From NCBI GenBank assembly GCA_028874765.1, contig JAPPIE010000139.1, positions 1-38,236 on the forward strand: a stretch of 38,236 nt of DNA, in the 5' to 3' direction. The notes under the pieces are model-generated. The model saw only the letters and a program-made list of their open reading frames with translations. It searched no databases and was not told where the DNA came from. Made by a program: the position numbers and the translations under genes. Source of the stretch: Gemmatimonadota bacterium (GTDB lineage Bacteria > Latescibacterota > UBA2968). Position 1 is the stretch's first letter. The number at the start of each line of letters is the position of its first letter. Below, piece after piece: positions 19,806-36,959 of the stretch.

Positions 19806-19852
19806 TCCAACGGCGTGATAGAAGTTTGATTCGAAACACTAAGGGAGGAGCT

Positions 19853-20740
19853 ATGCTGTTTACCGATGCACAAATGAGGCAATACGATGAGGAGGGAGCC
19901 GTTACGATCGACAGTCCCTTCACGACTGAGGAACTGGATCGCACGGAAGCGGCATGGGATAGGTTGAAGGCGAGCGGGCGTCCGCCTTATGAAGATCCGG
20001 ATTATGTCGATGTTGTCCAGCATCCCTATTTTGAGGAGGTCGCCAAAAAGGTGTTGCGAGCCGAGTCCGTACATCTGTGGTGGGGATTGTCACCCCACGA
20101 GCGCGCGCCGAGTAGCGCACCTTTTGCGAGCGTTCGCGAGCAATGGGGGAATGGCTGCCATGTCGATATCCAGGCGACCTGGGAGGATTTTCAGGCGACG
20201 CCGCGCCGGATGCGCGCTGAGTTGTGGTTCTGGGTCAATGACGTGCCGAAGCATCGGGGAGCTATGCGCATTTTGCCGGGTAGTCATCGCCCAATTATGG
20301 AACACTGGAGCCGGGTTTTGACGCCAGAGCACAAGGCGATGTTGCCCCGCGTCCACGGGTTGCGTCCAGAGCCGTCGGATACTGCGCCGGCTTATCCCGA
20401 GCATGTGCCCGAACTGGTTGATACGCCGTGGCTGGAACAGGAGCCGGTTTCGGCCGTTGCGCGTCGAGGTCAGATGCTGATTCTGTGCAGCGGGGGATTG
20501 CACTCTGCATGGCAGAACGAGGATACGGTGCCCCGCAAGGCGATGCTAACAGCATGGGTCGCTACTGGCGTGTCCTGCGGGTTGCCGAAGAATCAGCGCG
20601 ATGGGGTGATGTCGTTTTTCCCGCGGCTGCGAGAGAAGTTGCGTCCCGAGCGCGCGCATATTGTGCCCGAGGACTTCGACTGGCTGTTTGAGAGCGATTA
20701 CGAGCCGAAATGGCCAGAGATTTTTTTGGGAGCTATTTAG
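19853..20740 (+). CDS. Phytanoyl-CoA dioxygenase (PhyH)-family Fe(II)/2-oxoglutarate oxygenase
   Basis: 295 residues from the ATG at 19853; GGGAGGAG lies immediately upstream, whereas the longer in-frame start at 19799 has no such site. PhyH enzymes hydroxylate small molecules using Fe(II), 2-oxoglutarate and oxygen. The iron triad is visible as His103-x-Asp105 (GCHVDIQATW) and His217 (GGLHSAW), with Arg228 eleven residues later as the 2-oxoglutarate carboxylate ligand. PGSH at 142-145 is the usual motif before the second half of the jelly roll. There is no signal peptide, so it is cytoplasmic. Substrates vary too widely to guess. It is the first gene of the long run, 15 nt before the multihaem lipoprotein gene. 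Confidence 0.9.
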   Translation: MLFTDAQMRQYDEEGAVTIDSPFTTEELDRTEAAWDRLKASGRPPYEDPDYVDVVQHPYFEEVAKKVLRAESVHLWWGLSPHERAPSSAPFASVREQWGNGCHVDIQATWEDFQATPRRMRAELWFWVNDVPKHRGAMRILPGSHRPIMEHWSRVLTPEHKAMLPRVHGLRPEPSDTAPAYPEHVPELVDTPWLEQEPVSAVARRGQMLILCSGGLHSAWQNEDTVPRKAMLTAWVATGVSCGLPKNQRDGVMSFFPRLREKLRPERAHIVPEDFDWLFESDYEPKWPEIFLGAI

Positions 20741-20755
20741 AATAGAGGAAGATCG

Positions 20756-22966
20756 ATGCGCGCAGTGATCCCGGGGTTTTTTCTCTTTGTAGTAATGGTA
20801 TGTGGGTGTGCGAAGGATGCACCACAACCCGTGACTTCCAAAGCGATATATACGGGCGCAGAGGCGTGTGCAACGTGTCATCAGGAGGCTTATAAAGAAT
20901 GGCAGGGGTCGTTGCATCGGCGGTCCATGCAGGTGCCTTCGGTTGAGACTGTGCGGGGAGATTTTACACAGAACAATACATATACGTATAGGGGGATGAC
21001 GTCTCGAATGTTTGTGCGGGATGGGACCTATTTTATGGAGACGGATGGTGCTGATGGAACACGAGAAGTCTATCCCATCGAATATGCGATCGGAGACAGG
21101 GATACACAGTGGTACTTAACTACGCTCGAAGGTGGACGTATTCAGGTACTGCCGGCCTATTGGGATGTTCGGGAACAGACGTGGTTCGATCCAGTAGAAG
21201 GGTTGTTCGACCATCCGCAGGGATTTGCGCCGGGCGATGTCAATTATTGGACGAATTTTGGGCGGAACTGGAATTTTCAGTGTCATGACTGTCACGCGAG
21301 TCAGATTGAGAAAAATTACGATCCAGAGACAGGTGCTTACGCGACGCGCTGGACAGATTTGAGTATTAATTGCGAAACATGTCATGGGTCTGGAGGCCAA
21401 CATGTGGCATTCTGGAAAGCGCTGCCAGACCAGGTGCCCGCGCGGGATACGACACTGGTAAATTTGCGATTTTTGAGTTCGGAGCAGTCAGTGGAGGTCT
21501 GCGCGCAGTGTCACGCACACAAGCGAATCATTGGGGAGGGATATCAGCCGGGCGATCCGTTTTACGACTTTTACGAATTGGAAGTGCTGGATAGCGAAAA
21601 GTTCTGGGCAGATGGACGCTACCGCGAATTGAACTACAACACGCTGGCTTTTTTGATGAGTTCGTGTTATACGGTGGGGCATCTGACGTGCGCTGGTTGC
21701 CACGATTCTCACCACCTGGGTCCTGTGAGAGCGGAAGGCGAGACGCGCGCTGCAACCTATGACCGGGTGTGCTTGAACTGTCACAGGGTGGATGTGGGAG
21801 AGCAGCATAGCAATCACGAGACGGTGGGGTGCGTGGATTGCCATATGCCACCTGTAGAAGAGGTGAAGCGCATTGGGATATACGACCACCGCATCCTGTC
21901 GCCAGTACCGGAAAATACGGTTCGGTTTGGTATTCCAAATGCGTGTACCGAATGCCATAGCGATCAAACGCCCAACTGGGCGGCGAGTTGGGTAAAAACG
22001 TGGTGGGGTTCACAGGCAGATGAAGTGGCTCAGGCCGAAGCAATTGTTCTGGGACGGGTGGGAGATCCAAAGGCTCTGGATGGTTTGGTCGCGCTTTTGA
22101 AAGACCAGAGTATGGTGTTGCGGGCTTCGGCAGCCGTGTTGCTGGGCAGGCAGGCTGATGAGAGGGCTGAAAAGGCTTTAATAGATGCTCTGGACGATCC
22201 GCATCCGATGGTACGCACCCGGGCTGTAGAGGGATTGATGGTTTATGGAAGTGATGTGGGTATTGAGGCCGTAGCCGAGCGGCTGGATGATCCCTCGCGC
22301 CTGGTGCGCATTAGGGCGGCTTCGATGCTGGAGGGTGTGAATCTATCGGGCGATAGGGGTAATAAGCTATCCGAAGCTCTGACAGAATATCGGACAATAG
22401 TGACAGATCTTCTTGCCGATGATCCAGAGGCACAGGTGCAGGTGGGCATTGAGGCATTGCAACAGGGTGATGACCGGGCCGGGGAGATTGCGTTTCGGCA
22501 GGCTCTGAAGGTCTGGCCCGGAATGGCAGATGCTTATGCGGGGCTTGGTACTGTGTTTGTCAGGAACAGGCAATTCTCGGAGGCGGTAAAAATGTGGCGG
22601 GAAGCAGCGGCAAGGGATTCGACTCTGGTTGCACCTCTGCATCACGCTTGCGAGTTGTGGGAGGCTGATATTCGGAAGGGGTTTAGAACGCGACCCGGCA
22701 CAGCCCGGGATTATACCGACCTGGGGGATACATATACGCTTCGGGATTCTCTGGATGTGGCAATCTACTGGTATCGAAAAGCCATTGAGTCCGATCCCAA
22801 TTACGCTGTACCTTACCACAATCTGGCACTGGTCTGTGCAGAGGCTGGGCGGGAGGTGGAGGCTGAGGCGGCGTTGGATAGATACCGGCAAATTGCGAGA
22901 GATGCGAATGCTGTGCGCGAGTTGGAAGTGTTGATCCGGGAAAGAAGAAAGAGGCCCGGTGGATAG
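20756..22966 (+). CDS. Octahaem cytochrome c lipoprotein with HEAT and TPR repeats
   Basis: 736 residues. The N-terminus (FFLFVVMVCGCAKD) has a lipobox-like VCGC, so lipid anchoring at Cys18 is likely. Eight CxxCH haem sites are present, at 38-42, 176-180, 206-210, 249-253, 312-316, 339-343, 359-363 and 397-401, in a cytochrome c554/NapC-nitrite-reductase-like domain. Residues about 425-540 are HEAT-like (DPKALDGLVALLKDQSMVLRASAAVLLG and similar). Residues about 550-730 are TPRs (AEIAFRQALKVWPGMADAYAGLGTVF; AIYWYRKAIESDPNYAVPYHNLALV). This haem-HEAT-TPR fusion is known from Planctomycetota and Acidobacteriota genomes but I know no assigned reaction. Extracellular-side electron transfer or oxyanion reduction is inferred. 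AGAGGAAG precedes the ATG. Confidence 0.88.
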   Translation: MRAVIPGFFLFVVMVCGCAKDAPQPVTSKAIYTGAEACATCHQEAYKEWQGSLHRRSMQVPSVETVRGDFTQNNTYTYRGMTSRMFVRDGTYFMETDGADGTREVYPIEYAIGDRDTQWYLTTLEGGRIQVLPAYWDVREQTWFDPVEGLFDHPQGFAPGDVNYWTNFGRNWNFQCHDCHASQIEKNYDPETGAYATRWTDLSINCETCHGSGGQHVAFWKALPDQVPARDTTLVNLRFLSSEQSVEVCAQCHAHKRIIGEGYQPGDPFYDFYELEVLDSEKFWADGRYRELNYNTLAFLMSSCYTVGHLTCAGCHDSHHLGPVRAEGETRAATYDRVCLNCHRVDVGEQHSNHETVGCVDCHMPPVEEVKRIGIYDHRILSPVPENTVRFGIPNACTECHSDQTPNWAASWVKTWWGSQADEVAQAEAIVLGRVGDPKALDGLVALLKDQSMVLRASAAVLLGRQADERAEKALIDALDDPHPMVRTRAVEGLMVYGSDVGIEAVAERLDDPSRLVRIRAASMLEGVNLSGDRGNKLSEALTEYRTIVTDLLADDPEAQVQVGIEALQQGDDRAGEIAFRQALKVWPGMADAYAGLGTVFVRNRQFSEAVKMWREAAARDSTLVAPLHHACELWEADIRKGFRTRPGTARDYTDLGDTYTLRDSLDVAIYWYRKAIESDPNYAVPYHNLALVCAEAGREVEAEAALDRYRQIARDANAVRELEVLIRERRKRPGG

Positions 22967-22991
22967 AGAAGGCATCGGGAAGGAGGATGCT

Positions 22992-23900
22992 ATGAAGGTC
23001 TTGAGATGGATTCTATGTGCGATAGGGATTCTGGTGATGGGAGGGGAGGTTTGTGCTGCGGATCAGGTGATGTTGAAGTTGCAGTATCCCGAAGGGCGAA
23101 TCGCGCGCTACAAAAATAAGTATCGCCTGGATTATTTTAGCGATAAGGCCGAGATGATTTTGAGAGAAGGCTCATTTACTATGCAGGGGTATGGGGAATG
23201 GCGGAGTCGAGAAATGGTGGTTGAAGAGGGCGATAGCGTGAAAGTGACTGCCAGAGTAGATAAGGCCGGGAGCCAGGCCATATTGACTGGTGAGCGGTTG
23301 ACCTATGAGCAATTTCCCTATACTCTGGATTTGTTGAATGACCTTTCGTTTGCCTGGGGGATTGCGCCCGGGGGACAGGTGGGTGCGTTTGGTCCCGATT
23401 TTTCGGCTTTCAAGGCCAAGCGCAAGGATATGATTACGGATTTGCGGCAGGTCTGGATGCCCGGTCTCGCGCCCGTGCTGCCCGATCAGCCGGTATCGGT
23501 CGGAGATACATGGGAGGGTGAGCAGCGCATTGAGGTACCGTTTTACGATTTCGATGCCGGGTTAGAGCCTTCACTTGTGCAGTTTACCAGTGCGTATAAG
23601 CTGAAGAAGGTCAAAGAGCAAAAGGGATACCGGGTGGTGGAGATTGAGGAGGAGCGCGAGGTACATTACCGAATTTGGTTTCACATTGAGGTGTTGTCGC
23701 TGGTGATTGATGGCAAGGGATCGGGGAATGCGGAGTGGGAGATCGATATCGACCGCGGGCTTGTGCTTTCCCACAATATGAAGATCGGTCTGGGATTGCC
23801 GCAGGTGCGTATGGCAGGCGATCCAAAGCCTATTGATGATATCAAAGCAGAGATTGAATTGGTTTTTAGTAGAAAGTTAGATAAGCTGGAGAAAGAGTAA
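22992..23900 (+). CDS. Exported protein of unknown function
   Basis: 302 residues from the ATG at 22992, with AGGAGG at 22981-22986; an in-frame ATG at 22959 lies before that site. Signal peptide about 1-23 (EVCAA/DQ). The mature protein is beta-rich with short charged strands (LKLQYPEGRIARYKNKYRLDYFSDKAEM; GYRVVEIEEEREVHYRIWFHIEVLSLVIDGKGSGNAEWEIDIDRGLVLSHNMKIGL). The pattern resembles the exported DUF6263-like proteins of Planctomycetota, or a LolA-type lipid-binding half barrel, but I cannot assign it. Its TAA overlaps the ATG of the DUF6785 membrane protein by one base (TAATG), so the two are probably translationally coupled and may work together at the inner membrane. Confidence 0.7.
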   Translation: MKVLRWILCAIGILVMGGEVCAADQVMLKLQYPEGRIARYKNKYRLDYFSDKAEMILREGSFTMQGYGEWRSREMVVEEGDSVKVTARVDKAGSQAILTGERLTYEQFPYTLDLLNDLSFAWGIAPGGQVGAFGPDFSAFKAKRKDMITDLRQVWMPGLAPVLPDQPVSVGDTWEGEQRIEVPFYDFDAGLEPSLVQFTSAYKLKKVKEQKGYRVVEIEEEREVHYRIWFHIEVLSLVIDGKGSGNAEWEIDIDRGLVLSHNMKIGLGLPQVRMAGDPKPIDDIKAEIELVFSRKLDKLEKE

Positions 23901-25855
23901 TGAGTCTGGCTTTTGATACATCTGTTGCGATTCAGTCAGCTGGTCGGGGCGTGACCGCCCGCGCTGTATTGCTGGGCCTGGCGCTGGTCTGTGCAGAGAT
24001 CGCGGTGATTACATTTTCCGAGCCGGTGGCGCGGTCATCGTCTATGAACGTGAGCCACTTTCCCGTGGGATTTTTCATGTGGTTTGTGGTTGTGGTTTTG
24101 GGTTTGAACCCGCTTTTGAAATGGATTTATCCGGGGTATATGCTCTCGCGTTCAGAGCTTTTGACTGTTGCTGCGATGGGATTGATTGGGGCACATATTC
24201 CCGGTAGCGGTCTTTTGGGATTTTTCCTGGGAGTGCTGGCTGCGCCTTATTATTTTGCCTCGCCAGAGAATCAATGGGAAACTCTGTTGCATCCGACTAT
24301 TCCCTCGTGGTTGGCGCCTTTGAATGAGCGCGGTGCCATGCAGGGGTTTTTTGAGGGGCTACCTTCAGACTCAGTACCGTGGTCGGTCTGGATTATGCCG
24401 TTATTCTGGTGGATGTGTTTGATCGGGGTGCTGACTTTTGTGCTGCTGTGTATGGCGGTGATGCTGAGAAAGCAATGGGTGGAAAACGAGCGTCTGGTTT
24501 ATCCCCTGATTTCACCGGTGTCCGATCTGATTGAAGATGACGGCGTGGGGGGAATACTGTCTGGTCTGATGCAGAACAAGCTGTTCTGGTTCGGATTTGT
24601 TTTGGGTTTTGGCCTTTTGGCATGGAATTTTGTGTGGTATTTCTGGGATGCCTGGCCCCGTATCAACTTTTTTGGGCGCAAAGATTTGGTATTTATCGAC
24701 GGGTTCCCCGCGATGACCAACCGGGTCAATTTGTACATTATCGGGTTTGGTTATTTTGCCAATCTGGATGTGTTGTTTAGCCTCTGGTTTTTTTATCTGG
24801 TTTATTGGGCGCAGAACGGGATTTTCAACCGCATTGGTCTGGATTTGGGACCGGGAACGGGTGCGGCGAGTGCATGGGAAAATCTGGGGGCGTTGTTCGC
24901 GCTGGTCTGGTGGGCATTGTGGACAGCGAGGCATCATCTGCGGGATGTGGTGAGAAAAGCGATCAATACTAAGTACGGGGTGGATGATTCGGGGGAAATG
25001 GTGTCTTACCGCACAGCTGTATTGGGGGTGGTTCTGGGGTCGGGATTTTGTTTGTTGTGGCTGTGTATGGCCGGGATTGAGTGGTACATCGGGGTTTTGT
25101 TTTTGCTCGCGCTCTACGGGGTGTGTTTGGGGCTGGCAAAGGTGGTGTGTGAGAGTGGTTTGCTCTATCTGGCATGGGGAGTGAGTCCGCAGACATTGGT
25201 GACCAATTGTTTGGGGTCGGTGTCTATGGCGGGGGGTACGATTACGACGCTGGCATTTACAGAGGGGCTATTTTTCCACGGCAAGGGCCTGTTTATGTCG
25301 TCTCTGGCCAATAGCGCGAAGATGGGTGATCTGGCCGGTACCGATCAGAGGCGGCTGGGAAAGAGCATGGGGTTGGCACTGCTGGTGGGTATTCCCCTGT
25401 GTATTTATTTGAGTTTGGGATGGGGCTATGAACAGGGCGCGTACAATTTTGGGGGGTTTCCATTTCGCTATGGCCGCGATAGTGTGTTTGCGCGGGCTGT
25501 GAGCATGATGCAAAGTCCTCAGGGACCTGCGTCGTCTCGTCTCATATTTTTCGGGGTTGGCGTGGTGGGTATGACGGTGTTGACGGTGTTGCGCTACCGC
25601 TTGCCCTGGTGGCCGTTGCATCCGATTGGGTTTGCAGTGGGGGGAAGCGGTCGCGCTACGAAATCGACGTGGTCTATTTTTATTGCCTGGGCGTGTAAGT
25701 TTTTAATTGTGAAAATTGGCGGTGTGACGCTTTATCGGCGGTATCGCCCGTTGTTTACGGGATTGCTTTCGGGATATTCGCTGGGGGTTGGTGTGTCGTT
25801 TGCTGTGGATGTGTTGTGGTTTATGGGACGAGGGCATTGGATTCATTTGTATTGA
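23900..25855 (+). CDS. DUF6785/DUF6784-type polytopic membrane protein, paralogue 2
   Basis: 651 residues with about a dozen hydrophobic segments. It is paralogous to the protein at 1520-3481 along its whole length: APYYFASPENQW matches APAHYASPENRM, MPLFWWMCLIGVL matches RPLFWWLMACLSL, RKQWVENERLVYPL matches YKQWHEKERLVFPM, WWPLHPIGFA matches WWPFHPAAIA, and GGVTLYRRYRPLFTG matches GGVSLYRRSLPFWYG. The charged ExERLVxP loop and HP motif are the best candidates for functional residues. Family function is not established; transport is inferred from topology. Its start overlaps the upstream stop by one base, and the TPR gene follows 12 nt after its own stop. Confidence 0.75.
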   Translation: MSLAFDTSVAIQSAGRGVTARAVLLGLALVCAEIAVITFSEPVARSSSMNVSHFPVGFFMWFVVVVLGLNPLLKWIYPGYMLSRSELLTVAAMGLIGAHIPGSGLLGFFLGVLAAPYYFASPENQWETLLHPTIPSWLAPLNERGAMQGFFEGLPSDSVPWSVWIMPLFWWMCLIGVLTFVLLCMAVMLRKQWVENERLVYPLISPVSDLIEDDGVGGILSGLMQNKLFWFGFVLGFGLLAWNFVWYFWDAWPRINFFGRKDLVFIDGFPAMTNRVNLYIIGFGYFANLDVLFSLWFFYLVYWAQNGIFNRIGLDLGPGTGAASAWENLGALFALVWWALWTARHHLRDVVRKAINTKYGVDDSGEMVSYRTAVLGVVLGSGFCLLWLCMAGIEWYIGVLFLLALYGVCLGLAKVVCESGLLYLAWGVSPQTLVTNCLGSVSMAGGTITTLAFTEGLFFHGKGLFMSSLANSAKMGDLAGTDQRRLGKSMGLALLVGIPLCIYLSLGWGYEQGAYNFGGFPFRYGRDSVFARAVSMMQSPQGPASSRLIFFGVGVVGMTVLTVLRYRLPWWPLHPIGFAVGGSGRATKSTWSIFIAWACKFLIVKIGGVTLYRRYRPLFTGLLSGYSLGVGVSFAVDVLWFMGRGHWIHLY

Positions 25856-25867
25856 GGAGGAGCGATT

Positions 25868-27352
25868 TTGAAAAGATTTGGTTATGGGATAATGGCGTGG
25901 ATGCTATTTGTCTCAAATGTTGAGCCATCACAGATGGACTCGGTGCTGGTCGATATTATCAAGGGCAATTATTACGGGGCAATGGTGCGGTGCGAGGATG
26001 TGATAGCAGCCGATTCGACAGCGGCGGATGCGTACCGATTTTTGGGATGGCTTCAGATTGTGACGAGGCAGGGCGATTTGCAAGAGGTCGGGGAGAATTT
26101 GCAGCGGGCCATTCATCTTAAAGAGGATGCGGGAGCCCATAACGATCTCGGGGTGGTGTATTTTTTTCAGCGCAACTACAGCCCGGCGATTGAGGCATTC
26201 AGGCAGGCGGTCGCGCTAAGACCCGATGAGACAATGTTTTACCGAAATCTGGGTTTTGTGGCTGAATTGGCGGGGGCGTATTCCGATGCGGAATCGGCGT
26301 TTCAGGCTGTTTTAGAGCGAGACCCGACGGATGATCTGGCGGTTTACGGATATGGTCTTGCGCTGGTCAGGCAAGCGCGTCACGACGAGGCGCTGGAGGC
26401 ATTTCAAAAGGCTGTCCACATGTTTTCGGATCGCAAAGAGGCGCATTTAGAAATTGGACAACTCATGATGATGCACGGCAAGTATGCGTCTGCTATATCT
26501 GCGTACAAACGGGCGACAAAAATCGATTTTGAAGATCCCAAAGGTCATTATGGATTGGCACAGGCTTATCAGGTATCGGGCGATTCACTATCGGCGCGAC
26601 ATGCGTGGGAGGCGTTTAAGTTTTTTGACGAGCGCCACCGGCACGCGGTTCGAGATCAGTATGTGTTGCCTGTGCGATTTGATAAGGTAGCTGATTTGCT
26701 GGATTTTGGAGACAGGTTTGTGAGATTGGGGCATCACGATAAGGCTATAGAGGTTTATAGAAAAGCGGTCGCTCTGGTAGAAGATCCGGATTTGCCGTGG
26801 CGGTTTAGTCCGGAGGTCCCCGTGGTGTATCTGGCTCTGGGACAGTCCTATCAGGCGTTGGGCGAGGTAGAGCGGGCGCGGCGGTCTTATGACGCGGCTT
26901 TTGCGCTGGGTGAAGGGGGCATGGTATCTGACGAGGCATTGAGACACAGGGCAGATATGTTTTTGTGTGCCGATGGGTTGTCGCGCGATGTGGTGGAGGG
27001 ATATGAGCGGATTGTGGCTATGGATCCAATTGCTTATGCCGCGTTCTATATTTACGATCAGATTGGCCAGGCACAGGCGAAGACGGGACATTTGAATAAG
27101 TGTATTTCGACATATCAGACCAGAGCAGATCAGGTTGCGTATTCTGCGGGATTGTTGGTGCGATTGGGTGTGGCACATGCGGTGGTGGGAGATATGGACT
27201 CGGCAAGGGCGTTGTACGATCAAGTGATTGAGGGGGCAGAAGATCCGCGCGAATTGTATCTCCAGTTGTCGGTTCTCTATGGTCGGGCGGGACGGAAAGC
27301 AGAGGCCGAGGCGATGAAGGCTAAAGCATCCGCAGAAAAAAAACGCGAATGA
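25868..27352 (+). CDS. TPR-repeat exported protein
   Basis: 494 residues starting at a TTG at 25868, chosen because GAGGAGG lies 7-8 nt upstream and the frame then gives a Lys-Arg signal-peptide start; the first internal ATG is nearer the middle of the hydrophobic segment. TPR units run through most of the protein, for example NDLGVVYFFQRNYSPAIEAFRQAVALRPDETMFYRNLGFVAELAGAYSDAESAFQAVLERDPTDD (about 95-160), HLEIGQLMMMHGKYASAISAYKRATKIDFEDP and VYLALGQSYQALGEVERARRSYDAAFALG. There is no enzymatic domain, so it is probably a scaffold for the neighbouring envelope proteins. A structured intergenic element begins 3 nt after its stop. Confidence 0.85.
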   Translation: MKRFGYGIMAWMLFVSNVEPSQMDSVLVDIIKGNYYGAMVRCEDVIAADSTAADAYRFLGWLQIVTRQGDLQEVGENLQRAIHLKEDAGAHNDLGVVYFFQRNYSPAIEAFRQAVALRPDETMFYRNLGFVAELAGAYSDAESAFQAVLERDPTDDLAVYGYGLALVRQARHDEALEAFQKAVHMFSDRKEAHLEIGQLMMMHGKYASAISAYKRATKIDFEDPKGHYGLAQAYQVSGDSLSARHAWEAFKFFDERHRHAVRDQYVLPVRFDKVADLLDFGDRFVRLGHHDKAIEVYRKAVALVEDPDLPWRFSPEVPVVYLALGQSYQALGEVERARRSYDAAFALGEGGMVSDEALRHRADMFLCADGLSRDVVEGYERIVAMDPIAYAAFYIYDQIGQAQAKTGHLNKCISTYQTRADQVAYSAGLLVRLGVAHAVVGDMDSARALYDQVIEGAEDPRELYLQLSVLYGRAGRKAEAEAMKAKASAEKKRE

Positions 27353-27354
27353 GC

Positions 27355-27419
27355 GGTGTACAACTGGCCGGTGAACGAGCCTGAAAAGCGGCTCGTTGTA
27401 CACCATCCCCAGGCCAGTT
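27355..27419 (+). promoter_or_regulatory. Structured leader element with competing stems before CRTAC1-like gene
   Basis: GGCTCGTTGTACACC (27390-27404) can pair with ACGAGCC (27375-27381) and, past a 10-nt bulge, with GGTGTACAAC (27355-27364). Alternatively AACTGGCC (27362-27369) pairs perfectly with GGCCAGTT (27412-27419) around the inner stem. The two outer pairings share 27362-27364 and cannot form fully at once. No T tract follows. It may be a switch-like leader, a read-through or processing element, or a small palindromic insertion. Confidence 0.5.
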
Positions 27420-27488
27420 CATTTGAGCGTTTTCGCAGATAAACGCAGATGAGTGTAGCTATACTTTCGCAATTGGATGGGGGTATTA

Positions 27489-29090
27489 ATGATTAGAGTC
27501 ATTGGCATTCTTTTTTTGCTTTTATGTTCGGGTTCTGTTGCCGCAGAGCAATTTGTAGAGGTCGCAGAAGCGTCTGGTATATCGTTTGTGCATCGGACTG
27601 GCGCGCAGGGAAATTGGCATTATTTGGAGACCATGGGGTCGGGCTGTGTGGTGTTTGATGCGGATGGGGATGGCGATCTGGATTTGTATTTTGTCAATGG
27701 AGAACACGGGCAGACGGGTGGTGAGAATGCGTTGTACAGAAATGATGGCGGGTTTCGTTTTTCGGCTGTGCCGGGTGCGCCTGGGGTGGGGTATGGGATG
27801 GGGTGTGCGGTTGGGGATTATGACAATGATGGCGATCTGGATCTTTATACGACGGGTTATGATGCCAATGTGCTGTATCAGAACGATGGCCGTGGCGGTT
27901 TTGCTGAAAAGAAGGCGGGGGTGGAGGGTGGAGGGTGGTCTACTGGTGCCACCTTTTTTGATGCGGATGGAGATGGCGATCTGGATTTGTATGTGGTGCG
28001 CTATTTGACGTATGATGTGAAAACCGAGCCGCATTGCGAGCGGGTGGGTGTTCGCACGTATTGTGATCCCGGCTATTTTGAGGGTGCGCCGGATTTGCTT
28101 TATCGGAATGAGGGGAATGGACTATTTACGGATGTTTCCTTTGAGGCGGGTGTGGCAGATTCTTCGGGCAAAGGACTTGGGGTGGTGAGTCTGGATTACG
28201 ACGGGGATGGAGATACCGATCTCTATGTGGTGAATGATACGACGCCAAATTTTTTGTACCGCAATGTGGGGGGACGGTTTGAGAATGTGGGTGTAGAGGC
28301 GGGTGTGGCGTTTAATGCACAGGGTCGGACGCAGGCGGGGATGGGGGTCGATGTGGGGGATGTAGATGGGGACGGACGATCAGATATTTTTGTGACGAAT
28401 TTTTCCTACGAGACCAATGCGATTTATCAAAGTATGGCGGGTGGTTTTTTTTCAGAGGTCAGCGCGCTAACCGGGATTGCTGGCGCGTCTCTGCTGCCTC
28501 TGGGTTTTGGTACTCATTTTTTTGATTATGACAACGATGGCGATCTGGATCTATTTGTGGCAAATGGACATATTTTCCCGAATGTAAAGGCGTTTTCCAG
28601 GGCGGAATCCTATTTACAGGCGGATCAAATATTTCGCAATGCGGACGGGCGGTTTGAGGTGGTCAATGCGGGCGTTGAAACACCAGGGGTGAGTCGCGGA
28701 TCGGCGATTGGCGATCTGGATGGGGATGGCGATCTGGATCTGGTGGTACTGCATTCGGGACAGCGTGCGCGGGTGTTCCGCAATGAATTTGAGAACTCGG
28801 GACACTGGATCATTGTAAAACTGGTAGGGGGAGGTATGCAGGGAGAGGAACATGGGTTTTCAAATAGGGATGGGATTGGGGCGGTGGTGCATGTGAGCGC
28901 GGGGGGAAAGATCCAGGTGCGCGAGGTTCGGAGTCAGTCGAGCTATTTGTCTGCGAGCGATTTGCGGCTTCATTTTGGGCTGGGCAATGCGCGTCGCGTG
29001 GATCGAATTGAGGTGCGCTGGGTGAGTGGGCGCGTGCAGGTGTTGGAAGATGTTGGGGTGGACCGCGTTGTGGTTGTGGAAGAAAATTGA
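27489..29090 (+). CDS. CRTAC1-like FG-GAP/VCBS beta-propeller with ASPIC/UnbV domain
   Basis: 533 residues from the ATG at 27489, which has GGGGG about 5 nt upstream; an in-frame ATG at 27477 would add four residues. Signal peptide about 1-19 (SVAAE). Seven calcium-loop repeats are visible, as FDADGDGDLDLY (twice), YDNDGDLDLY, YDGDGDTDLY, DVDGDGRSDIF, YDNDGDLDLF and DLDGDGDLDLV, giving a seven-bladed integrin-alpha-like propeller. The last 70 residues (DGIGAVVHVSAGGKIQVREVRSQSSYLS to LHFGLGNARRVDRIEVRW) are the ASPIC/UnbV domain. The DNA of the loops is almost the same (GATGGCGATCTGGAT recurs). Such proteins often occur beside multihaem-TPR genes, as here; they are thought to bind at the surface, with no known reaction. 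Confidence 0.92.
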   Translation: MIRVIGILFLLLCSGSVAAEQFVEVAEASGISFVHRTGAQGNWHYLETMGSGCVVFDADGDGDLDLYFVNGEHGQTGGENALYRNDGGFRFSAVPGAPGVGYGMGCAVGDYDNDGDLDLYTTGYDANVLYQNDGRGGFAEKKAGVEGGGWSTGATFFDADGDGDLDLYVVRYLTYDVKTEPHCERVGVRTYCDPGYFEGAPDLLYRNEGNGLFTDVSFEAGVADSSGKGLGVVSLDYDGDGDTDLYVVNDTTPNFLYRNVGGRFENVGVEAGVAFNAQGRTQAGMGVDVGDVDGDGRSDIFVTNFSYETNAIYQSMAGGFFSEVSALTGIAGASLLPLGFGTHFFDYDNDGDLDLFVANGHIFPNVKAFSRAESYLQADQIFRNADGRFEVVNAGVETPGVSRGSAIGDLDGDGDLDLVVLHSGQRARVFRNEFENSGHWIIVKLVGGGMQGEEHGFSNRDGIGAVVHVSAGGKIQVREVRSQSSYLSASDLRLHFGLGNARRVDRIEVRWVSGRVQVLEDVGVDRVVVVEEN

Positions 29091-29112
29091 TGTATTTAAC
29101 AGGAGGCCGAGT

Positions 29113-30417
29113 ATGGGTGAAGCACAGAGAGATGCGCGGTTGCTGTGGGAACTGGATGTGGACGGTGTTGGCGGGCAGATGGTTGTGGCGGATGTGAATG
29201 GCGATGGAAAGCAGGAGTTTTTGTTGCGGCAGAGTCCGGGGCAGTTGAAGTCGGATCTCTATATTGAGCGGGGATGGAATACGGATGAGGAACGGCATTT
29301 GTTCTGCATTACGGCAATTGACCAGGAGGGCAACCAGCTATGGCAGGTGGGGGAGCCGCATCGGGGTACAGATCCGTACTGCGCGCATGGGGGCAATGAT
29401 TTTCTTACCGCGGATGTGGATGGCGATGGGAAGGCGGAGGTGGTTTCGGTTGTGTGGGATGTGCTGACGGTTTTTGACGGGGAAACGGGCGAGGTGCAAG
29501 CGAAGAAGAAGCTGCCAGCAGATAATTTTTCTCAGGTGAAGGCCGGAAATTTGAAGGGCGATCCGACGCGGCAGCAACTCGTTGTGAAAGTCAATGATGG
29601 TGCTTATCCGCCTTATGAATACGGCAATCCGACTTATGTTCTGGATAGCGATTTGTCGGAGTTGTGGATGACGCCGCATTATCACGGGGCAGGGCATGCG
29701 CCGGTTTTGATCGATGTGGATGGCGATGGGTGCGACGAGATGTTGATCGGGTATAATCTGGTGGATAGCGATGGGACTTTGTTGTGGTCGATTCCAGTGG
29801 AGAATGCCACGAAAGAGCATGCGGATAATATCAATCCGGTGGATTTCAATGGGGATGGCGAGATTGAGATTGCGTATTCGGGCAGCAAGGATTTTTTTGT
29901 GGCGAATATGCAGGGCGAGGTAATCTGGAGACGCCCTCATGAGCATTCGCAGAATACGACGGTGGGGCGTTTTCGCAGTGATATAGATGGGCAGACGATG
30001 ATTTTGAACGAAAAGTGGATTGGGATGACGTGTTATACCCCCGATGGACAGGCATTGTGGCAAAAAGCCGGTGTGGGATATGCCCAACATGCTGTGCGCG
30101 GCTGGCGAGATGACGGACTGGATCTGGTGATTTATGCCCCGGCTTTAAAGAGGCAACAAGAGGATGTGCCTTATGATAGCGAGCCGGAAGATACACATCT
30201 TTACTGGCCGTTTCTGATGGATGGCGATGGCAACCGGGTGATGGAATTTCCCTTTCGAGAGGATTTCAAACAGCCCAAACAGCGCATCCGGGGATTTCGT
30301 GCGTACGATTACGGGATTGGATATGGCGCGATGGTGTTGGATCTGGATGGGGACGGAAGAGATGAGGTGCTGATTTATGACCGGCGGAAGATTCTGGTAT
30401 ATGGCGCGCCAGCATAA
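29113..30417 (+). CDS. FG-GAP beta-propeller resembling PL11 rhamnogalacturonan lyase
   Basis: 434 residues from the ATG at 29113, with AGGAGG at 29101-29106; the longer GTG frame lies inside the previous gene. No signal peptide is seen, so it appears cytoplasmic. Calcium-type loops occur at 27-35 (DVNGDGKQE), 101-109 (DVDGDGKAE), 201-209 (DVDGDGCDE), 244-252 (DFNGDGEIE) and near 412 (DLDGDGRDE). The order DVDGDGCDEMLIGYNLVDSDGTLLWS, then EHADNINPVDFNGDGEIEI, resembles the PL11 propeller as I remember it. I cannot confirm the catalytic residues. An enzyme acting on rhamnogalacturonan fragments would fit the PL22 lyase elsewhere in the window; a non-catalytic propeller is the alternative. Confidence 0.65.
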   Translation: MGEAQRDARLLWELDVDGVGGQMVVADVNGDGKQEFLLRQSPGQLKSDLYIERGWNTDEERHLFCITAIDQEGNQLWQVGEPHRGTDPYCAHGGNDFLTADVDGDGKAEVVSVVWDVLTVFDGETGEVQAKKKLPADNFSQVKAGNLKGDPTRQQLVVKVNDGAYPPYEYGNPTYVLDSDLSELWMTPHYHGAGHAPVLIDVDGDGCDEMLIGYNLVDSDGTLLWSIPVENATKEHADNINPVDFNGDGEIEIAYSGSKDFFVANMQGEVIWRRPHEHSQNTTVGRFRSDIDGQTMILNEKWIGMTCYTPDGQALWQKAGVGYAQHAVRGWRDDGLDLVIYAPALKRQQEDVPYDSEPEDTHLYWPFLMDGDGNRVMEFPFREDFKQPKQRIRGFRAYDYGIGYGAMVLDLDGDGRDEVLIYDRRKILVYGAPA

Positions 30418-30442
30418 GCACTAATCATGTAGGAGGTGTGCT

Positions 30443-31405
30443 GTGAGGAATCAGTGGATATTATATCTTCTGTTTTTTTCTCTGCTTCATTGTGCGGGGA
30501 ACACCGATCTGCTGGATTCCGATTATTCAACTGTTGAGGGCCGCATTGCGTTTGTGGGACCGGGAGATTTTACATCATTCAAAATTTTTGTGATGCGTCC
30601 CGATGGCAAAGGTTTGATTAGGCTTACGAGCGAGCAGGGGGGCTATACCAATCCCTCCTGGTCTCCGAATGCGCGGCGCGTTGCATTTGCTTCAAACCGG
30701 GATGCCGTCGGGAATTTCGATATTTATATTTTTAATCTGAAGGATGGAGACATACAGAAGGTGGTTGATTTGCCCGGTCCCGACCTCGGTCCAGTCTGGT
30801 CTCCCGGTGGTGGAAAGATCGCTTTTCAGGCGCAGAAGGATAATAGGGATAGATGGGATATCTACACGGTCAACCTGAATGGGACAGGATTGCAAAATCT
30901 AACAAATTCTCCCAGTAGTGATGAAGCACCGGACTGGTCACCCGATGGACGCAGAATTGCTTTTCAATCGCGCCAGGGGAACAATATCGACATTTTGATC
31001 ATGGATTCAGATGGTTCTAACCGGGTCAGACTTACGGATTTCGATGGTGTTCAGAATATTCATCCAGCCTGGTCGCCAGATGGAACACGCATTGCATTTG
31101 CATCAAATCGGCATCAACCACAGGTGCGAAATCAGTTTCCGGAATGCGAGATTTATACTATGGATTCCGGTGGGGCTATGGTGCGACGGTTGACCCTGGG
31201 TGCGAGTTCTACAGTGGCTTTTTTTTCTCCTACCTGGTCGCCCGACGGTCAAAGGATTGCGTTTGAAGTGCGACGAACCCTTGAGAGACAGGGTGGCCTG
31301 GAACACAGGTTGATGATGATAAATTCCGATGGCACAGATTTGCATGAAGTTTCTGTGGATATGGAGGTCTCTGCGCCTCACTGGTCGCCGAGGCAAACCG
31401 AGTAG
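30443..31405 (+). CDS. TolB-like PD40 beta-propeller, exported
   Basis: 320 residues from a GTG at 30443, preceded by AGGAGGTG with normal spacing. The N-terminus WILYLLFFSLLHCAG is a signal peptide, with a Cys at residue 17 that may be lipidated although His at -1 is unusual. Six PD40/WD40-like repeats are marked by WSPNARR, WSPGGGK, WSPDGRR, WSPDGTR, WSPDGQR and WSPRQTE, each followed by a strand of the IAFxS type, which makes a six-bladed propeller like the C-terminal half of TolB. There is no TolB N-terminal domain or protease domain. It lies 25 nt after the PL11-like gene. Its ribosome binding site and signal-peptide DNA closely match those of the TlpA-like gene at 33754. Confidence 0.88.
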   Translation: MRNQWILYLLFFSLLHCAGNTDLLDSDYSTVEGRIAFVGPGDFTSFKIFVMRPDGKGLIRLTSEQGGYTNPSWSPNARRVAFASNRDAVGNFDIYIFNLKDGDIQKVVDLPGPDLGPVWSPGGGKIAFQAQKDNRDRWDIYTVNLNGTGLQNLTNSPSSDEAPDWSPDGRRIAFQSRQGNNIDILIMDSDGSNRVRLTDFDGVQNIHPAWSPDGTRIAFASNRHQPQVRNQFPECEIYTMDSGGAMVRRLTLGASSTVAFFSPTWSPDGQRIAFEVRRTLERQGGLEHRLMMINSDGTDLHEVSVDMEVSAPHWSPRQTE

Positions 31406-31422
31406 AAGGGAAGTGGAGGATA

Positions 31423-33720
31423 GTGTTGAAATCGCGGTACAGGGGTTTTAGAAACGTTTATCTGTGTGCTCTTTTTGTTATACTGCCCATTGTCGCTTTG
31501 GCCCAGGAACCGGATTCTTTGAAGGTATTAGAGAGAATGGTGCAGGCATCTCCAGGGGACCGCGAAGCCTGGGTGCGGTTGGGGTATGCCTATTTGGATG
31601 CGGGGGATTTAGACCGGGCAGATAAGGCGTTCCGAAAAGGCATCCAGGGCACAACGGCATCTAGGGCGTTCAACGGCCTGGGACTGGTCTATACGAGACG
31701 CCCCAAACAGCCTGAGAAAGCGCTGTTTTATTTTCGCCGAGCATTGGGAGCCGATCCCACATTTTTTGAAGTTCGGATGAACATCGCCCGGTTGTACCTC
31801 AAGATGGGTAATTTCGATGCTGGAAAGGCATTGGAAGAGGTCATCCAGGCCGATTCGACATATGCGCCAGCCTATTTGGCGTTGGGAAATTGGTATGCAG
31901 ACTGGTTTGAGGGATGGGATGCCAACAGCGACGAACAGCAGCGGAGAATCGAGCTTTTTAAACGCTATATTTTGTTCCATCCTGAGGATTCGGAGGGTCC
32001 CTATAGGCTGGCGTTGACTTATATTGAGATGCAGCGCTATGGACAAGCTCTGGACGTGGCTGAACCCGCGATGGAATTACATCCAGATGAGGCGCGTCTT
32101 TTGCCATTAGCTGCCCAGGCGTATGCAACTCAGGGGGAAGCGGATCAGGCACTGGGCTTGTTTCGGATCTTTTTTTGGATGCTTCCAGATAGCAATCGGG
32201 CGTTGTATGAGGGCCTGTCACTGGTGGCGTTTCCAGAGGAGTTGGCGGCCTACAGATCTTTGTCTGAAGCGGAACAAGAGGCGTTTTTAGATCAATTCTG
32301 GCTCAAGCGGGATCCAACGCTCATTTCAGCGGGAAGAGCACGGCGAGTGGAACACTATCGGCGAGTGTGGTATGCGCGTACGTATTTTGCCAGCAAGGTG
32401 CAGCCCTGGGATAAGCGCGGAGAGGTTTATATCCGGTATGGTGCGCCGGACTACAGGTCCCGGTCTGGTCGGACCAACCCACCTCCCAGCATGGCGGTAC
32501 AGGCTATTAAAGAGCGAAATGCGTTCACCATTTACAGAAAAAAAGAATCTGACGCCCTACCCATACCAGGAGAAATTGCACACGGCAGAGCGTTGATAGA
32601 GCCGGTTTTCCCTCTGGATCGATCAGCGCGTGAAAGGGTAGATGATGTTTATGTTGCGGAGGAACCGACAGTACATTGGGAATCGTGGGTTTATACGCAG
32701 GTAGGTGGTGGCATTGAGTTTGTGTTTACAGATCAGATGTTGAACGGACAATGGGCATTCGCGCCACCTCCTCTTTCTGCAAATTTTCCGATTGGTTTAA
32801 TGACCCGGTTGGCGGAATTGAATCCGGCCAATGTCCTGCAGGTCGTGTCTTCGGCAATGCCAGAACGCTACACCCTGCCTCCAGGGGCAGAACCACTGGC
32901 GTTCTATTACGACCTGGCGACTTTTCGCGGTAAGGCAGAAAACACCGAGGTGGAGGTTTATTACGGCATTGCACCCGAACAGATGGCTGTTCAGGAGGTG
33001 GGACAACTGGCGCAAATCCAGGTGGAGCGAACAGTCGTATTTATCGATAGTACCGGTGAAGTTGCACACCGAAATGTAGAGGCGCTACCGTTCGCTTGGG
33101 CGGCATCATCGCCCCTCAAGCAGGGCACTTTCTTGCCAGATGTTGTCACTCTGGAAGTGCCATCGGGAACCTATCGCGTGGCCGTGCAGTTGATCGATCA
33201 GGTCTCTGGCAAGTGGGGTATCTACCAACAGGCAGTGACGGTGCCTGCTTATAGGGATTCTCTGGGCATCAGCGATCTGGAACTGGCCTGGTCGATTTCA
33301 GAAAAACCTCAGGGGAAGAAGTTTCAGAAGGGAAACGTATGGGTGATTCCGATGCCAAGCCGAAGCTACCGGGACGAGCAGGAGGTCTATGTGTACTATG
33401 AGATCTACAACTTGCAGAAGGATCAGTTCGGACAGACGAAGTATCGCATCAGCTATGCTATCCGTCAGGATTTACGCACGCGATTAGGGGTGTTTGGCGC
33501 AGTATTTTCGGGATTCCGCAGGTTGCTCTCGGCCGGGAAACCGGAGGTGGTGGTGAGCTATGACCGGACTGGAAACGAGACTTTTGAGCCGATCTATTTC
33601 GAGCTTGAGACAGAGAAGTTGGATATGGGAGTCCACCAGATTGAAGTGAGGGTGGTAGATCTGAATGGCGGGGGTGCTGTCTCCAAGAGTGCCGTATTTG
33701 TTTTGGGAAAGGGAGAGTAA
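31423..33720 (+). CDS. TPR/GWxTD-domain exported protein, paralogue 2
   Basis: 765 residues. GGAGG ends only 3 nt before the GTG at 31423 and 6 nt before a TTG at 31426, so the latter may be the true start. Signal peptide to about residue 28 (IVALAQ). TPRs span about 30-270 (EAWVRLGYAYLDAGDLDRADKAFRKGI; EKALFYFRRALGADPTFFEVRMNIARLYLKMG). The GWxTD domain is at about 285-345: FLDQFWLKRDPTLISAGRARRVEHYRRVWYAR and PWDKRGEVYIRYGAPDYRSRSGR. The C-terminal block FQKGNVWVIPMPSRSY / FGQTKYRISYAI matches the paralogue at 17123-19591 closely, so these are two copies of one architecture. Function unknown. Confidence 0.88.
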   Translation: MLKSRYRGFRNVYLCALFVILPIVALAQEPDSLKVLERMVQASPGDREAWVRLGYAYLDAGDLDRADKAFRKGIQGTTASRAFNGLGLVYTRRPKQPEKALFYFRRALGADPTFFEVRMNIARLYLKMGNFDAGKALEEVIQADSTYAPAYLALGNWYADWFEGWDANSDEQQRRIELFKRYILFHPEDSEGPYRLALTYIEMQRYGQALDVAEPAMELHPDEARLLPLAAQAYATQGEADQALGLFRIFFWMLPDSNRALYEGLSLVAFPEELAAYRSLSEAEQEAFLDQFWLKRDPTLISAGRARRVEHYRRVWYARTYFASKVQPWDKRGEVYIRYGAPDYRSRSGRTNPPPSMAVQAIKERNAFTIYRKKESDALPIPGEIAHGRALIEPVFPLDRSARERVDDVYVAEEPTVHWESWVYTQVGGGIEFVFTDQMLNGQWAFAPPPLSANFPIGLMTRLAELNPANVLQVVSSAMPERYTLPPGAEPLAFYYDLATFRGKAENTEVEVYYGIAPEQMAVQEVGQLAQIQVERTVVFIDSTGEVAHRNVEALPFAWAASSPLKQGTFLPDVVTLEVPSGTYRVAVQLIDQVSGKWGIYQQAVTVPAYRDSLGISDLELAWSISEKPQGKKFQKGNVWVIPMPSRSYRDEQEVYVYYEIYNLQKDQFGQTKYRISYAIRQDLRTRLGVFGAVFSGFRRLLSAGKPEVVVSYDRTGNETFEPIYFELETEKLDMGVHQIEVRVVDLNGGGAVSKSAVFVLGKGE

Positions 33721-33753
33721 ATGAAAAGGATGCTCTTTCACAGGAGGTGTGCT

Positions 33754-35874
33754 ATGATGAAACGATGGGTCCTATATCTTCTATTTTTTTCTCTGTGTCC
33801 AATTCCCATTCAAGGGCAAGATACAGCAGAAGAAGTGATTGAGAGGTTGAGATCTCTGCGAATAATACGGAATTATAAAGATGGATATGTTGAGGGGAAA
33901 AAGCTGGTCGAACGGTTTCCGGATAATTTGCATCTACGCGCCTGGTTCATTTATTATCTGGCCGCGGAGAATAAAGAGGAAGCAGTTGCCGCCGCTGAAG
34001 AGATGATCGCGTCTCATGAAAATAGCGCGTGGGGTTGGGTCGCGCTTGCGAGCGCACTTGATCGACTTGGTAAAGAGCGCAGGGATGAGGCTCTTTTAGC
34101 CAGTGAAAAAGCCATGGAGATGTTGCCCGACCATGCGGATGTTATCAATACAAGAGCGGATGTGCTGTATGGAAGCAGTAAAGAGGATGCCATTGCCTTT
34201 GTGGATGAGTATAAAACGCGAGTCGAGAATCCAGCGAGGCTTCTGGTCGTCAAGGGGAATGCGCTATACTATACTTCTAATAGGGGCAAAAACACTGAAA
34301 GATTTGAGGCTTGTCTGAAGGCGTTTGCAGAAGTGCGCAAAGCCGACCCCGGCAATGCAAATGGATATTTTCGACCGGCTTATTATCTGTATTTGGTAGG
34401 TCGTTATGATGAAGCCTATCCGCTATACCAGAAAGCGGCGCAATTGGCATCTACAGATGTAAAGGTACATCAGCGGTTCTGGCGAGCGATTGAGCGACTT
34501 AAAAACAAGCCCATAGCAGAGAAAATTGCCGAGATTGAGGCTGATGCTGATGTGCTTTTGAAGGCGCGTGGGGAAGGTGTAGTTTCTCTAAATATATTAT
34601 ACGGTGTCTATGTGAGGCTGGACGCAGAAGAGAAGGCAAAAGTGGTAGGAGACCGCATTCTCAGGACCTATGGCGAAAGTGCAGAGGCAGAGGAGGTTCT
34701 GGCGCATCGCTATCGTGAGGTGCTAGATGCCGCCGGTTATGAAGGGTTCAAAGATCCTGAGCAAGAGGCGATGTTTCGAAATTTACTGAGGGCATTTATC
34801 GCACGGCCTCGACACCATGATGAGAAGCTGCTGGGACAGGCTTATATGTATCTATTTGATTCTATTCAAGAGGATTCTACGGTATCGGCAGAAGAACTTC
34901 TGGATGTGGTGCAGGGTATGGTTAAATATGAAGGCGACAATCCAAACTTAACATTTTCAATGGGCGCGATTGCGCTGGCAGAACGCACGTCGCATTATCG
35001 AGAGGCTGAACAGATTGCCCGGGATGGTGTTGCGGCAGCACAGGAATTTCTGAAAGGTCAGAGGAAGTACTTCGACTCAGAGGAAGAGTATCAACTGACC
35101 ATAAAAGGGATGACCGGGTTGATGGCCGATGCCCTCGGCTGGGTGTTTTTTCAGGAAGGGCGTTTGGAAGATGCCGAGCGAGAATTGATGCGTGCCTATG
35201 AACTGGACCCCAAAGAGAAGGACACGATTTACCATTTGGGTCAGGTTTACGAGGCGATGGGCGATTTCGATCAGGCAGAAATATTTTATAAAATGGGTAT
35301 AGTTATTCTATCGCCAGGTGAAAATCCCAATGACCAGGCTCTAAAGTCACTCTATTTGAAACGACACGGGAGTTTAGAAGGATACCAAGATTACTTAAAA
35401 CCTTTGATAGCATCAGATCGAGAAAAGCGAAAGCAGGAGGTTCTGTCTTCTCGGATTGAGGTTCCAGAACCCGCTCTTGCGTTCAATTTGAAGACTCTAA
35501 AGGGTAAGCAAGTATCGCTAACTTCTTTGAAGGGCAAGGTCGTGGCGATCAATTTCTGGGGGATATGGTGTGGCCCATGTGTGAAAGAGATGCCGGATTT
35601 TCAGAATTTGTACGAGCATTACAAAGACGATCCCGATGTGGCGATTTTGACGATTAATAATGATCGCAATCCCGAGTCGGTACCTCCGTGGATGGAGGAA
35701 AAGGGTTACACGTTCCCGGTTTTGCTCGATGATGGATATGTGAATAAAGCGGGAATTCAGGGCTTTCCCACAACCTGGTTTTTCAATCGGGAAGGGCAGA
35801 TTGCGTTTCTAAAGCGGGGATGGACAAAAGAATTGGAGGAGGAATTTGGTTGGCGTATCGAGGCTTTGAGATAA
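33754..35874 (+). CDS. TPR protein with C-terminal TlpA/ResA-type thioredoxin domain
   Basis: 706 residues from the ATG at 33754, chosen because AGGAGGTG sits 5 nt upstream and the frame opens a signal peptide (MMKRWVLYLLFFSLCPIPIQGQ); an in-frame ATG at 33721, directly after the preceding stop, is less likely. Residues about 25-560 are helical with TPRs (ADALGWVFFQEGRLEDAERELMRAYELDPKEKDTIYHLGQVYEAMGDFDQAEIFYKMG). Residues about 570-706 are a TlpA-like fold: PALAFNLKTLKGKQVSLTSLKGKVVAINFWGIWCGPC, active-site Cys606 and Cys609, cis-Pro672 in GFPTTWF. Such proteins reduce disulfides outside the inner membrane, for instance in cytochrome c maturation, which suits the octahaem protein upstream. 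Last gene of the run; no clear terminator follows. Confidence 0.9.
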   Translation: MMKRWVLYLLFFSLCPIPIQGQDTAEEVIERLRSLRIIRNYKDGYVEGKKLVERFPDNLHLRAWFIYYLAAENKEEAVAAAEEMIASHENSAWGWVALASALDRLGKERRDEALLASEKAMEMLPDHADVINTRADVLYGSSKEDAIAFVDEYKTRVENPARLLVVKGNALYYTSNRGKNTERFEACLKAFAEVRKADPGNANGYFRPAYYLYLVGRYDEAYPLYQKAAQLASTDVKVHQRFWRAIERLKNKPIAEKIAEIEADADVLLKARGEGVVSLNILYGVYVRLDAEEKAKVVGDRILRTYGESAEAEEVLAHRYREVLDAAGYEGFKDPEQEAMFRNLLRAFIARPRHHDEKLLGQAYMYLFDSIQEDSTVSAEELLDVVQGMVKYEGDNPNLTFSMGAIALAERTSHYREAEQIARDGVAAAQEFLKGQRKYFDSEEEYQLTIKGMTGLMADALGWVFFQEGRLEDAERELMRAYELDPKEKDTIYHLGQVYEAMGDFDQAEIFYKMGIVILSPGENPNDQALKSLYLKRHGSLEGYQDYLKPLIASDREKRKQEVLSSRIEVPEPALAFNLKTLKGKQVSLTSLKGKVVAINFWGIWCGPCVKEMPDFQNLYEHYKDDPDVAILTINNDRNPESVPPWMEEKGYTFPVLLDDGYVNKAGIQGFPTTWFFNREGQIAFLKRGWTKELEEEFGWRIEALR

Positions 35875-36956: not shown

Positions 36957-36959
36957 ATT

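Follow-up and report, generated by a model that had tools for sequence, protein, structure and literature searches.

A nest of dispersed repeats at the 3' end of a TPR gene upstream of a CRTAC1-like gene in a Latescibacterota genome

The gap between a TPR-repeat gene and a CRTAC1-like gene of a Gemmatimonadota bacterium (GTDB lineage Latescibacterota, UBA2968; assembly GCA_028874765.1) holds a real, non-random structure that is made of dispersed repeats and is not a leader or a switch. With high confidence, we interpret it as dispersed non-coding repeats that have gathered one within another, through one insertion after the next, where the TPR gene has its 3' end. A decanucleotide array, (CGCAGATNNA)n, encloses a hairpin termed P (AAAACGC...GCGTTTT), the loop of P holds a hairpin unit termed U, and an inverted second U lies in the loop of the first. 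The strongest argument against a chance arrangement is the recurrence of the hairpin unit and of the array motif in the same genome.

Results

Position and pairings of the gap

The window, that is, the whole stretch of 38,236 nucleotides of contig JAPPIE010000139.1 analysed here, comprises a same-strand run of ten open reading frames (ORFs) at 19799-35874. The TPR-repeat protein is encoded at 25868-27352 on the plus strand, with its last codons read from the repeats and its TGA stop at 27350-27352. The CRTAC1-like protein, with FG-GAP repeats and an UnbV_ASPIC domain, is encoded on the same strand at 27477-29090, and its start may lie at 27489. The gap between the two genes is the longest of the run, as a previous reading of the letters without database searches (the sequence-only reading) had pointed out, and the whole feature extends over about 27329-27453, wider than the interval 27353-27488 first given. 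Elsewhere in the window, an N6/N4 DNA methylase (PF01555) adjoins an MTaX1 plus HNH_2 protein on the minus strand (35949-37964), likely as a pair of the restriction-modification type, and a strong terminator-like hairpin, AAAAGGCGACCGA...TCGGTCGCCTTTTTTT, is located near a gene end at about 17069-17120.

At the centre of the gap, an inner hairpin pairs AACGAGCC (27374-27381) with GGCTCGTT (27390-27397). Outer pairing 1, of 10 bp, joins GGTGTACAAC (27355-27364) to GTTGTACACC (27395-27404), and outer pairing 2, of 8 bp, joins AACTGGCC (27362-27369) to GGCCAGTT (27412-27419). Pairing 1 crosses pairing 2 and overlaps one arm each of pairing 2 and of the inner stem, so that the two outer pairings are mutually exclusive, in agreement with the sequence-only reading. 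The related CGCAGA flanks that it described are equally real, with CGCAGA at 27331-27336 and CGCAGATAAACGCAGATGAG starting at 27434. Folded as DNA, the 65-nt core reaches -17.8 kcal/mol (z = -4.6), and positions 27336-27433 as a single strand reach -24.3 kcal/mol versus a shuffled mean of -12.1 kcal/mol (z = -5.0), with none of 200 shuffles as good in either case. As RNA, a stretch of 151 nt gains less over its shuffles (z = -2.1), 5 of 200 of which do as well.

Architecture of the nest

The nest is read here from its left end, on the plus strand unless indicated otherwise. Layer 1 begins with a left remnant of the decanucleotide array, TCCGCAGA (27329-27336), recognized from the orthologous alignment and from genome-wide copies. 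A collinear BLAST alignment with the relative G009 delimits the 97-bp insertion that follows (27337-27433), in place of which G009 has 4 nt (TGAA) within surrounding DNA that is about 90% identical. Layer 2 is hairpin P, whose left arm and shoulder, AAAAACGCGAAT (27339-27350), are identified by the fold and by copies of P without U elsewhere, and whose right arm, TTTGAGCGTTTT (27422-27433), is identified by the fold and by P copies elsewhere. The left shoulder of P is followed by GAGCGG (27351-27356), which the junction test and the flanks define as the short 5' shoulder of the outer unit; where the empty repeat has one A, GAGCGG and the hairpin stand instead, and the TPR stop codon spans the border between the two shoulders.

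Layer 3 is the outer unit, U1 (27357-27421), composed of TGTAC, the stem AACTGGCC/GGCCAGTT and CA, with the inner unit in its loop, as indicated by the fold, the junction test and the finding of the nested pair elsewhere. Layer 4 is the inner unit, U2 (27372-27402, minus strand), a 31-nt TGTAC-AACGAGCC-GCTTTTCA-GGCTCGTT-CA that matches the covariance model of U with an E value of 1.6e-9, U2 itself being among the five seeds of that model. The right part of the array, CGCAGATAAACGCAGATGAG (27434-27453), identified from genome-wide copies and from the relatives, completes layer 1. TGTACA is its own reverse complement and is present in both U1 and U2 in opposite orientation, which accounts for the competing outer stem.

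The hairpin unit U

U is a 31-nt unit consisting of an unpaired TGTAC, an 8-bp stem that starts with AA and ends with TT, an 8-nt loop and an unpaired CA tail. A covariance model built from five copies found U in all 11 genomes of the genus, with at least 14 to at least 132 matches each and at least 33 in the own genome; at most 150 candidates were scored per genome, and these counts can be low. The same model, used with stricter filters, found U in none of the 53 other genomes of the phylum among the candidates scored (at most 113 per genome). We also queried the own genome (4.9 Mb in 474 contigs; completeness 95.8, contamination 6.2) with positions 27330-27500, which returned 20 matches, itself included. 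The genome-wide search for the palindrome that the sequence-only reading had called for thus yields dispersed copies.

Across 35 distinct rows (80 aligned matches), 99.6% of the stem cells are paired, two-sided changes occur in 4 of the 8 stem pairs, a number reached by 5 of 500 shuffles, and the covariation score exceeds that of all 500 shuffles, in an alignment that was fitted to the covariance model and therefore favours structure. Further pair types are not above shuffles (4 versus 4.6), and stem pairs 1 and 2 are A-U in all 35 distinct rows. The tag reads GGTAC at loci L117, L192, L201 and L207, TGTAA at L191 and TGTAC in the other scanned copies of U, under a scan that demanded TGTACA with at most one mismatch and in which more distant GTAG variants would not show. 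The 65-nt nested pair is matched over its full length at L002 (29.8 bits) and, with 24.8-24.9 bits, at L164, L174, L176 and L181 (G009) and at L146 (G006). A long loop is present in 18 of the 72 distinct U copies of the fetched DNA.

U lies inside other repeats

U lies inside other repeats, often at A/AT (the slash marking the junction), without evident target duplication where this can be judged. Among the fetched loci, a search for P in the array, as AAAACGCGARTAATTTGAGCGTTTT with at most 2 mismatches, gave 12 that are empty of U and 12 that contain it; the own genome contributes 11 of the former and 4 of the latter. The pattern for the U-filled form fixes the junction, so identical junctions among these 12 loci prove nothing, and the U-filled composites fit composite copying as well as repeated insertion. 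U is also found within (CGAATAGA)n, (CGAATCAA)n, CAGGATTTACAGGAT-, GAATTAGG-, CACACAAAG- and GGAGTCGAAG-type repeats.

When 6 nt and the hairpin as far as TTC are exchanged for one A, the outcome matches a sequence of the fetched DNA (at most 2 mismatches) for 27 of the 57 non-inner U copies. This rule is the best of seven, with 19 of 57 for a near-equivalent rule and 0, 0, 1, 2 and 2 for the others; controls with swapped flanks gave 9, 1 and 8 of 57, values that overstate chance because the swaps often remain within one repeat family. Among the copies that fit the rule the junction is mostly A/AT, a form broken by L120, L144 (in its CACACAAAG site), L196 and L207. With regard to the terminal inverted repeats and target-site duplication of MITEs of DDE transposons, U takes the place of a single A, with nothing duplicated, where its surroundings are P or GTCGAAG, and a duplication would escape notice in the periodic arrays.

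At a second locus of the own genome, L117, another CRTAC1-like gene ends in a CGAATAGA array that carries copies of U. BLAST alignments show that L110, L116, L118 and L119 are continuous at the site of this insert but for 3 nt (the letters were inspected for L116 and L118, and the L117 insert adjoins a run of N), and in L109 (G010) 53 nt are unaligned at this point.

The orthologous site in relatives

The TPR-CRTAC1 gene pair was found in eight relatives of the same genus, and none of them has the hairpins. Parsimony favours insertion of the hairpins over their loss, and the absence at eight orthologous sites, together with the other genomic copies, bears out the palindromic insertion that the sequence-only reading had put forward as one possibility. 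Six relatives (G001, G002, G003, G007, G008 and G009) carry the bare array, which reads CCGCAGATGTACGCAGATAAACGCAGATGAG in G007, and two (G005 and G010) have no array. The proposal that the insertion duplicated its flanks did not survive this comparison: the six relatives hold the CGCAGA array without hairpins, which rules out a target duplication as the source of the flanks. No orthologue-level copy was among the matches listed for G004 and G006 (best 64 bits, and 63% identity). A CRTAC1 tree separates first G010 and then G005 from the other sequences, though weakly (80/77).

Compared with the seven relatives translated, the C-terminus of the upstream protein has been reshaped, as had been suspected. 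The TPR protein terminates with KASAEKKRE in the window, with KASADVRR, KASADERR, KASANIRR or KATTDERR in the five translated relatives that have the bare array (G002 is not among them), and, in those devoid of the array, with KARK (G005) or KARYK (G010). The TPR stop codon of G005 overlaps the start of the next gene, and G010 appears similar from its sequence; the overlap in G005 indicates that the array uncoupled the TPR and CRTAC1-like genes. At the other end of the CRTAC1-like gene (window 29087-29100), G005 has a CGCAGAT array and, behind it, a repeat of the GTAGGGGC type, G009 has another, GC-rich repeat and the window has neither, and these differing repeats suggest that gene ends take up repeats independently.

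Arrays and GxxExxY genes

When one mismatch at most is allowed, the own genome yields 132 hits of the array motif CGCAGATNNACGCAGAT, overlapping units being taken separately, and 2 of the reversed control. Many arrays start with ATCCGCAGAT, and the exact array motif occurs in 22 of the 64 phylum genomes. A same-strand frame of at least 100 codons ends between -30 and +100 nt of the array start for 47 of 58 arrays, compared with 24% of random points, and an opposite-strand frame ends near the far edge for 25 of 58, compared with 20% at random points. Two peaks stand out among the distances from frame end to array start, one at -18, with 8 arrays that contain the stop, and one at +3, with 7 arrays.

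Genes of the PF13366 family (GxxExxY, PDDEXK_3), with matches in 8 of the 11 genus genomes and 26 of the 64 phylum genomes, are associated with such arrays. CGCAGAT units are located near both ends of four GxxExxY genes of the genus (L213, L214, L215 and L222), one of which belongs to the own genome (G000:C99, L214) and is flanked on both sides by the units of the window array. In the phylum genome G017, CGCAGAT arrays at 5687 and 6318 bracket a PF13366 gene (C254, 5745-6083). The window array has the same unit as these flanking arrays, but it is a solo copy without the gene. Other PF13366 genes come with other phased units, e.g. CACAGAT, CACGAAG, CAGGAT, CACAAAA and CGCGAAA.

At least 60 PF13366 matches were listed in the phylum, some of them pieces of one gene; 34 loci were taken and 33 scored (the flank of L308 was too short). 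Flank-to-flank local similarity of at least 28 was found for 27 of these 33 genes, which include the orthologous pairs L211/L217, L213/L222 and L214/L215, versus 14 of 532 syntenic genus segments and 1 of 84 same-locus segments. With cut-offs of 34 and 40 the counts become 24 and 19 of 33, versus 6 and 3 of 532 and 1 and 1 of 84. Scores below 28 were obtained for L305, L312, L319, L321, L322 and L218, the last of which carries a CACAAAG-type array at just one flank.

Across the PF13366 loci L209-L222 and L305-L325, most genes are bounded by two copies of a phased short repeat, and the unit tracks the protein subclade within the genus and not between genera. Mean protein identity is 72.5% for pairs sharing a flank unit (18 pairs) versus 41.5% for pairs with different units (258 pairs), with units labelled by eye for 24 of the 29 proteins, one of them doubtfully, and two close protein pairs (89% and 82%) differ by one base in the unit. 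Among the eight same-unit pairs between genera, one is close (76%) and seven are at 41-51%, no better than the 41.5% mean. The higher mean of the same-unit pairs stems from comparisons inside the genus and from this one close pair. At what is apparently the same neighbourhood in G009 (L209) and G006 (L220), the GxxExxY genes differ and so do their repeats, with CACGAAG in the former and CACAAAA in the latter, which looks like a second use of the site or an exchange.

The tie between arrays and GxxExxY genes is an association only, and in the literature searched, with few subscription papers and no preprints, we found neither a print record of a GxxExxY-array link nor the array strings; the mention of GxxExxY consulted there does not concern repeats. 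We rejected four-helix-bundle 23S IVP genes as array makers: PF05635 is matched in 2 of the 11 genus genomes, with end repeats of other kinds. Two PF05635 genes (L223 and L224) are bounded by inverted short repeats of the GGGGCTGG and AGTGGCGAGTGG types.

Candidate movers of U and known relatives

Matches to PF01797 (Y1 transposase) are present in 6 of the 11 genus genomes, and there is none in G000 (the own genome), G004, G008, G009 or G010, all of which have U. G009, which like G010 is a single contig, has the most U (at least 132 matches) yet no PF01797 match. We consequently did not retain a Y1/RAYT transposase as the present mover in the own genome, where none was found. In G003, the region 1117-1775 of L207 includes a Y1-like ORF of 202 aa with a U some 20 nt past its stop codon, where this U splits the middle of a GTAGG...ACCCGCTAC palindrome. 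The ORF is itself interrupted in frame by a GTAGGCGCGGGTTT...AACCCGCGCCTAC palindrome related to the one behind its stop; the GTAG-type repeat, and not U, looks like the ORF's own repeat, and U would be a guest. A loose pattern check of the seven Y1 loci L202-L208 revealed no other U with both arms.

Non-autonomous IS200/IS605-type elements have a subterminal hairpin and insert in a target-specific manner without target duplication, features that U shares as far as its sites allow a judgement, although no such transposase is tied to U and the ends of U are predicted from its sequence. U resembles REPs and appears closest to their CGTC-tagged class, yet it has neither of the two published tags. 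The CGTC-tagged REPs, described with RPE-4/RPE-6 of Rickettsia and dRS3 of Neisseria (PMC3733652), are like U short palindromes with an unpaired 4-nt end tag. According to the same source, their stem is of 8-9 bp with AT pairs at the first and second positions (8 bp and AA/TT in U), their unpaired tail is CCA (CA in U) and no dedicated transposase is known for them, as for U. The tag differs, however, being (T)GTAC in U and CGTC (or TGTC, CCTC) in this class, as does the loop, of 8 nt in standard U and 4-5 nt in the class, and U, unlike CGTC REPs, forms nested inverted pairs, in which the loop of one unit harbours the second.

The GTAG REPs and REPINs associated with RAYT share with U many dispersed small hairpins and inverted doublets, mostly downstream of genes (PMC3116915, PMC3733652), and some of their families lie within other palindromes, as U does (PMC3733652). 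U differs from them by lacking the GTAG tag, by its nested doublet and by the missing PF01797 in five U-bearing genomes. REPINs are presented as inverted doublets with a spacer (PMC3116915). The insertion of some REP families within palindromes, reported in section 7 of PMC3733652, is the nearest precedent for the nest.

Discussion

The sequence-only reading had offered a metabolite- or protein-sensing leader, in which the exclusive RNA pairings around the inner hairpin would control the CRTAC1-like gene. The pairings exist and the RNA of the region folds slightly better than shuffles (z = -2.1), but we consider such a riboswitch or leader highly improbable and have set it aside, since the structure is missing from all eight relatives that have the gene pair, Rfam gives no match at gathering scores in the whole window and 27200-27600, examined by a simple scan, shows neither a terminator-like nor a promoter-like site. 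At least 33 matches of the same hairpin unit across the own genome argue in the same direction, and the alternative pairing follows from two inverted units with self-complementary TGTACA. A by-product repeat can still have been co-opted by the host.

The other alternatives concern how the repeats came together. Slippage, template switching and gene conversion among existing repeats, and not transposition, might mainly have made the nest: U is mostly seen inside other repeats, no target duplication is evident where this can be judged, and the composites share one junction, an observation limited by the search pattern. We nonetheless judge this unlikely, as the use of the same A/AT kind of point by U across several repeat families with no relation to each other calls for a step that recognizes the site, and as a given gene end may carry an array in one genome but none in its relatives. 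It is also rather doubtful that U is a REP- or REPIN-like element whose mover, a RAYT-type Y1 transposase, has since been lost, is hidden in an assembly gap or is too divergent for PF01797. The size of U, its 8-bp AA/TT-edged stem, its tag and tail, its gene-end site and its insertion in palindromes match REPs as described (PMC3733652), Y1 matches occur in 6 of the 11 genus genomes, and the L207 copy lies about 20 nt past the stop of a Y1-like ORF. Against it stand the GTAC tag, which is neither GTAG nor CGTC, the richness in U of the single-contig G009 (at least 132 matches) with no PF01797 match, the guest-like position of the L207 copy inside a GTAG-type palindrome and, by the loose pattern, the lack of any other two-armed U at L202-L208.

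In the history that we favour, by successive insertion, a phased array (CGCAGATNNA)n would have arrived near the stop of a gene pair with overlapping stop and start. In the lineage of the window, hairpin P would then have entered the array, a U the loop of P and an inverted U the loop of that U. We infer this order of the layers, and likewise that U spreads as a folded single strand via a trans-acting enzyme, perhaps aided by conversion among its copies. The effects on the host, namely the uncoupled gene pair, the new TPR C-terminus and a strong mRNA hairpin, are probably side effects.

A broader joint reading can be put forward tentatively, and we hold it for possible and somewhat short of an even chance. 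Two little-known mobile systems would meet at this site. The arrays would be traces, left without the gene, of a class of mobile elements encoded by GxxExxY PD-(D/E)XK proteins, whose genes lie amid copies of the same repeat, and would spread to gene 3' ends with stop codons making the landings tolerable; U would be a RAYT-independent, GTAC-tagged REP-like hairpin that inserts in such repeats, often at AAT, and in its own loop, so producing nests of hairpins within hairpins. The weak fit between unit and protein subclade across genera has slightly reduced our confidence in this combination, which was limited from the start.

These results remove a false riboswitch candidate and replace it by a readable history of nested gene-end insertions. 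They add a REP-like family, found here in one genus only, without both published tags and without PF01797 in its richest genome. They also point to the GxxExxY nuclease family as a candidate maker of phased short repeats, given how frequently a gene of this family has such a repeat on either side. Repeat insertion of this kind would offer a simple route to new protein C-termini and to the uncoupling of coupled genes.
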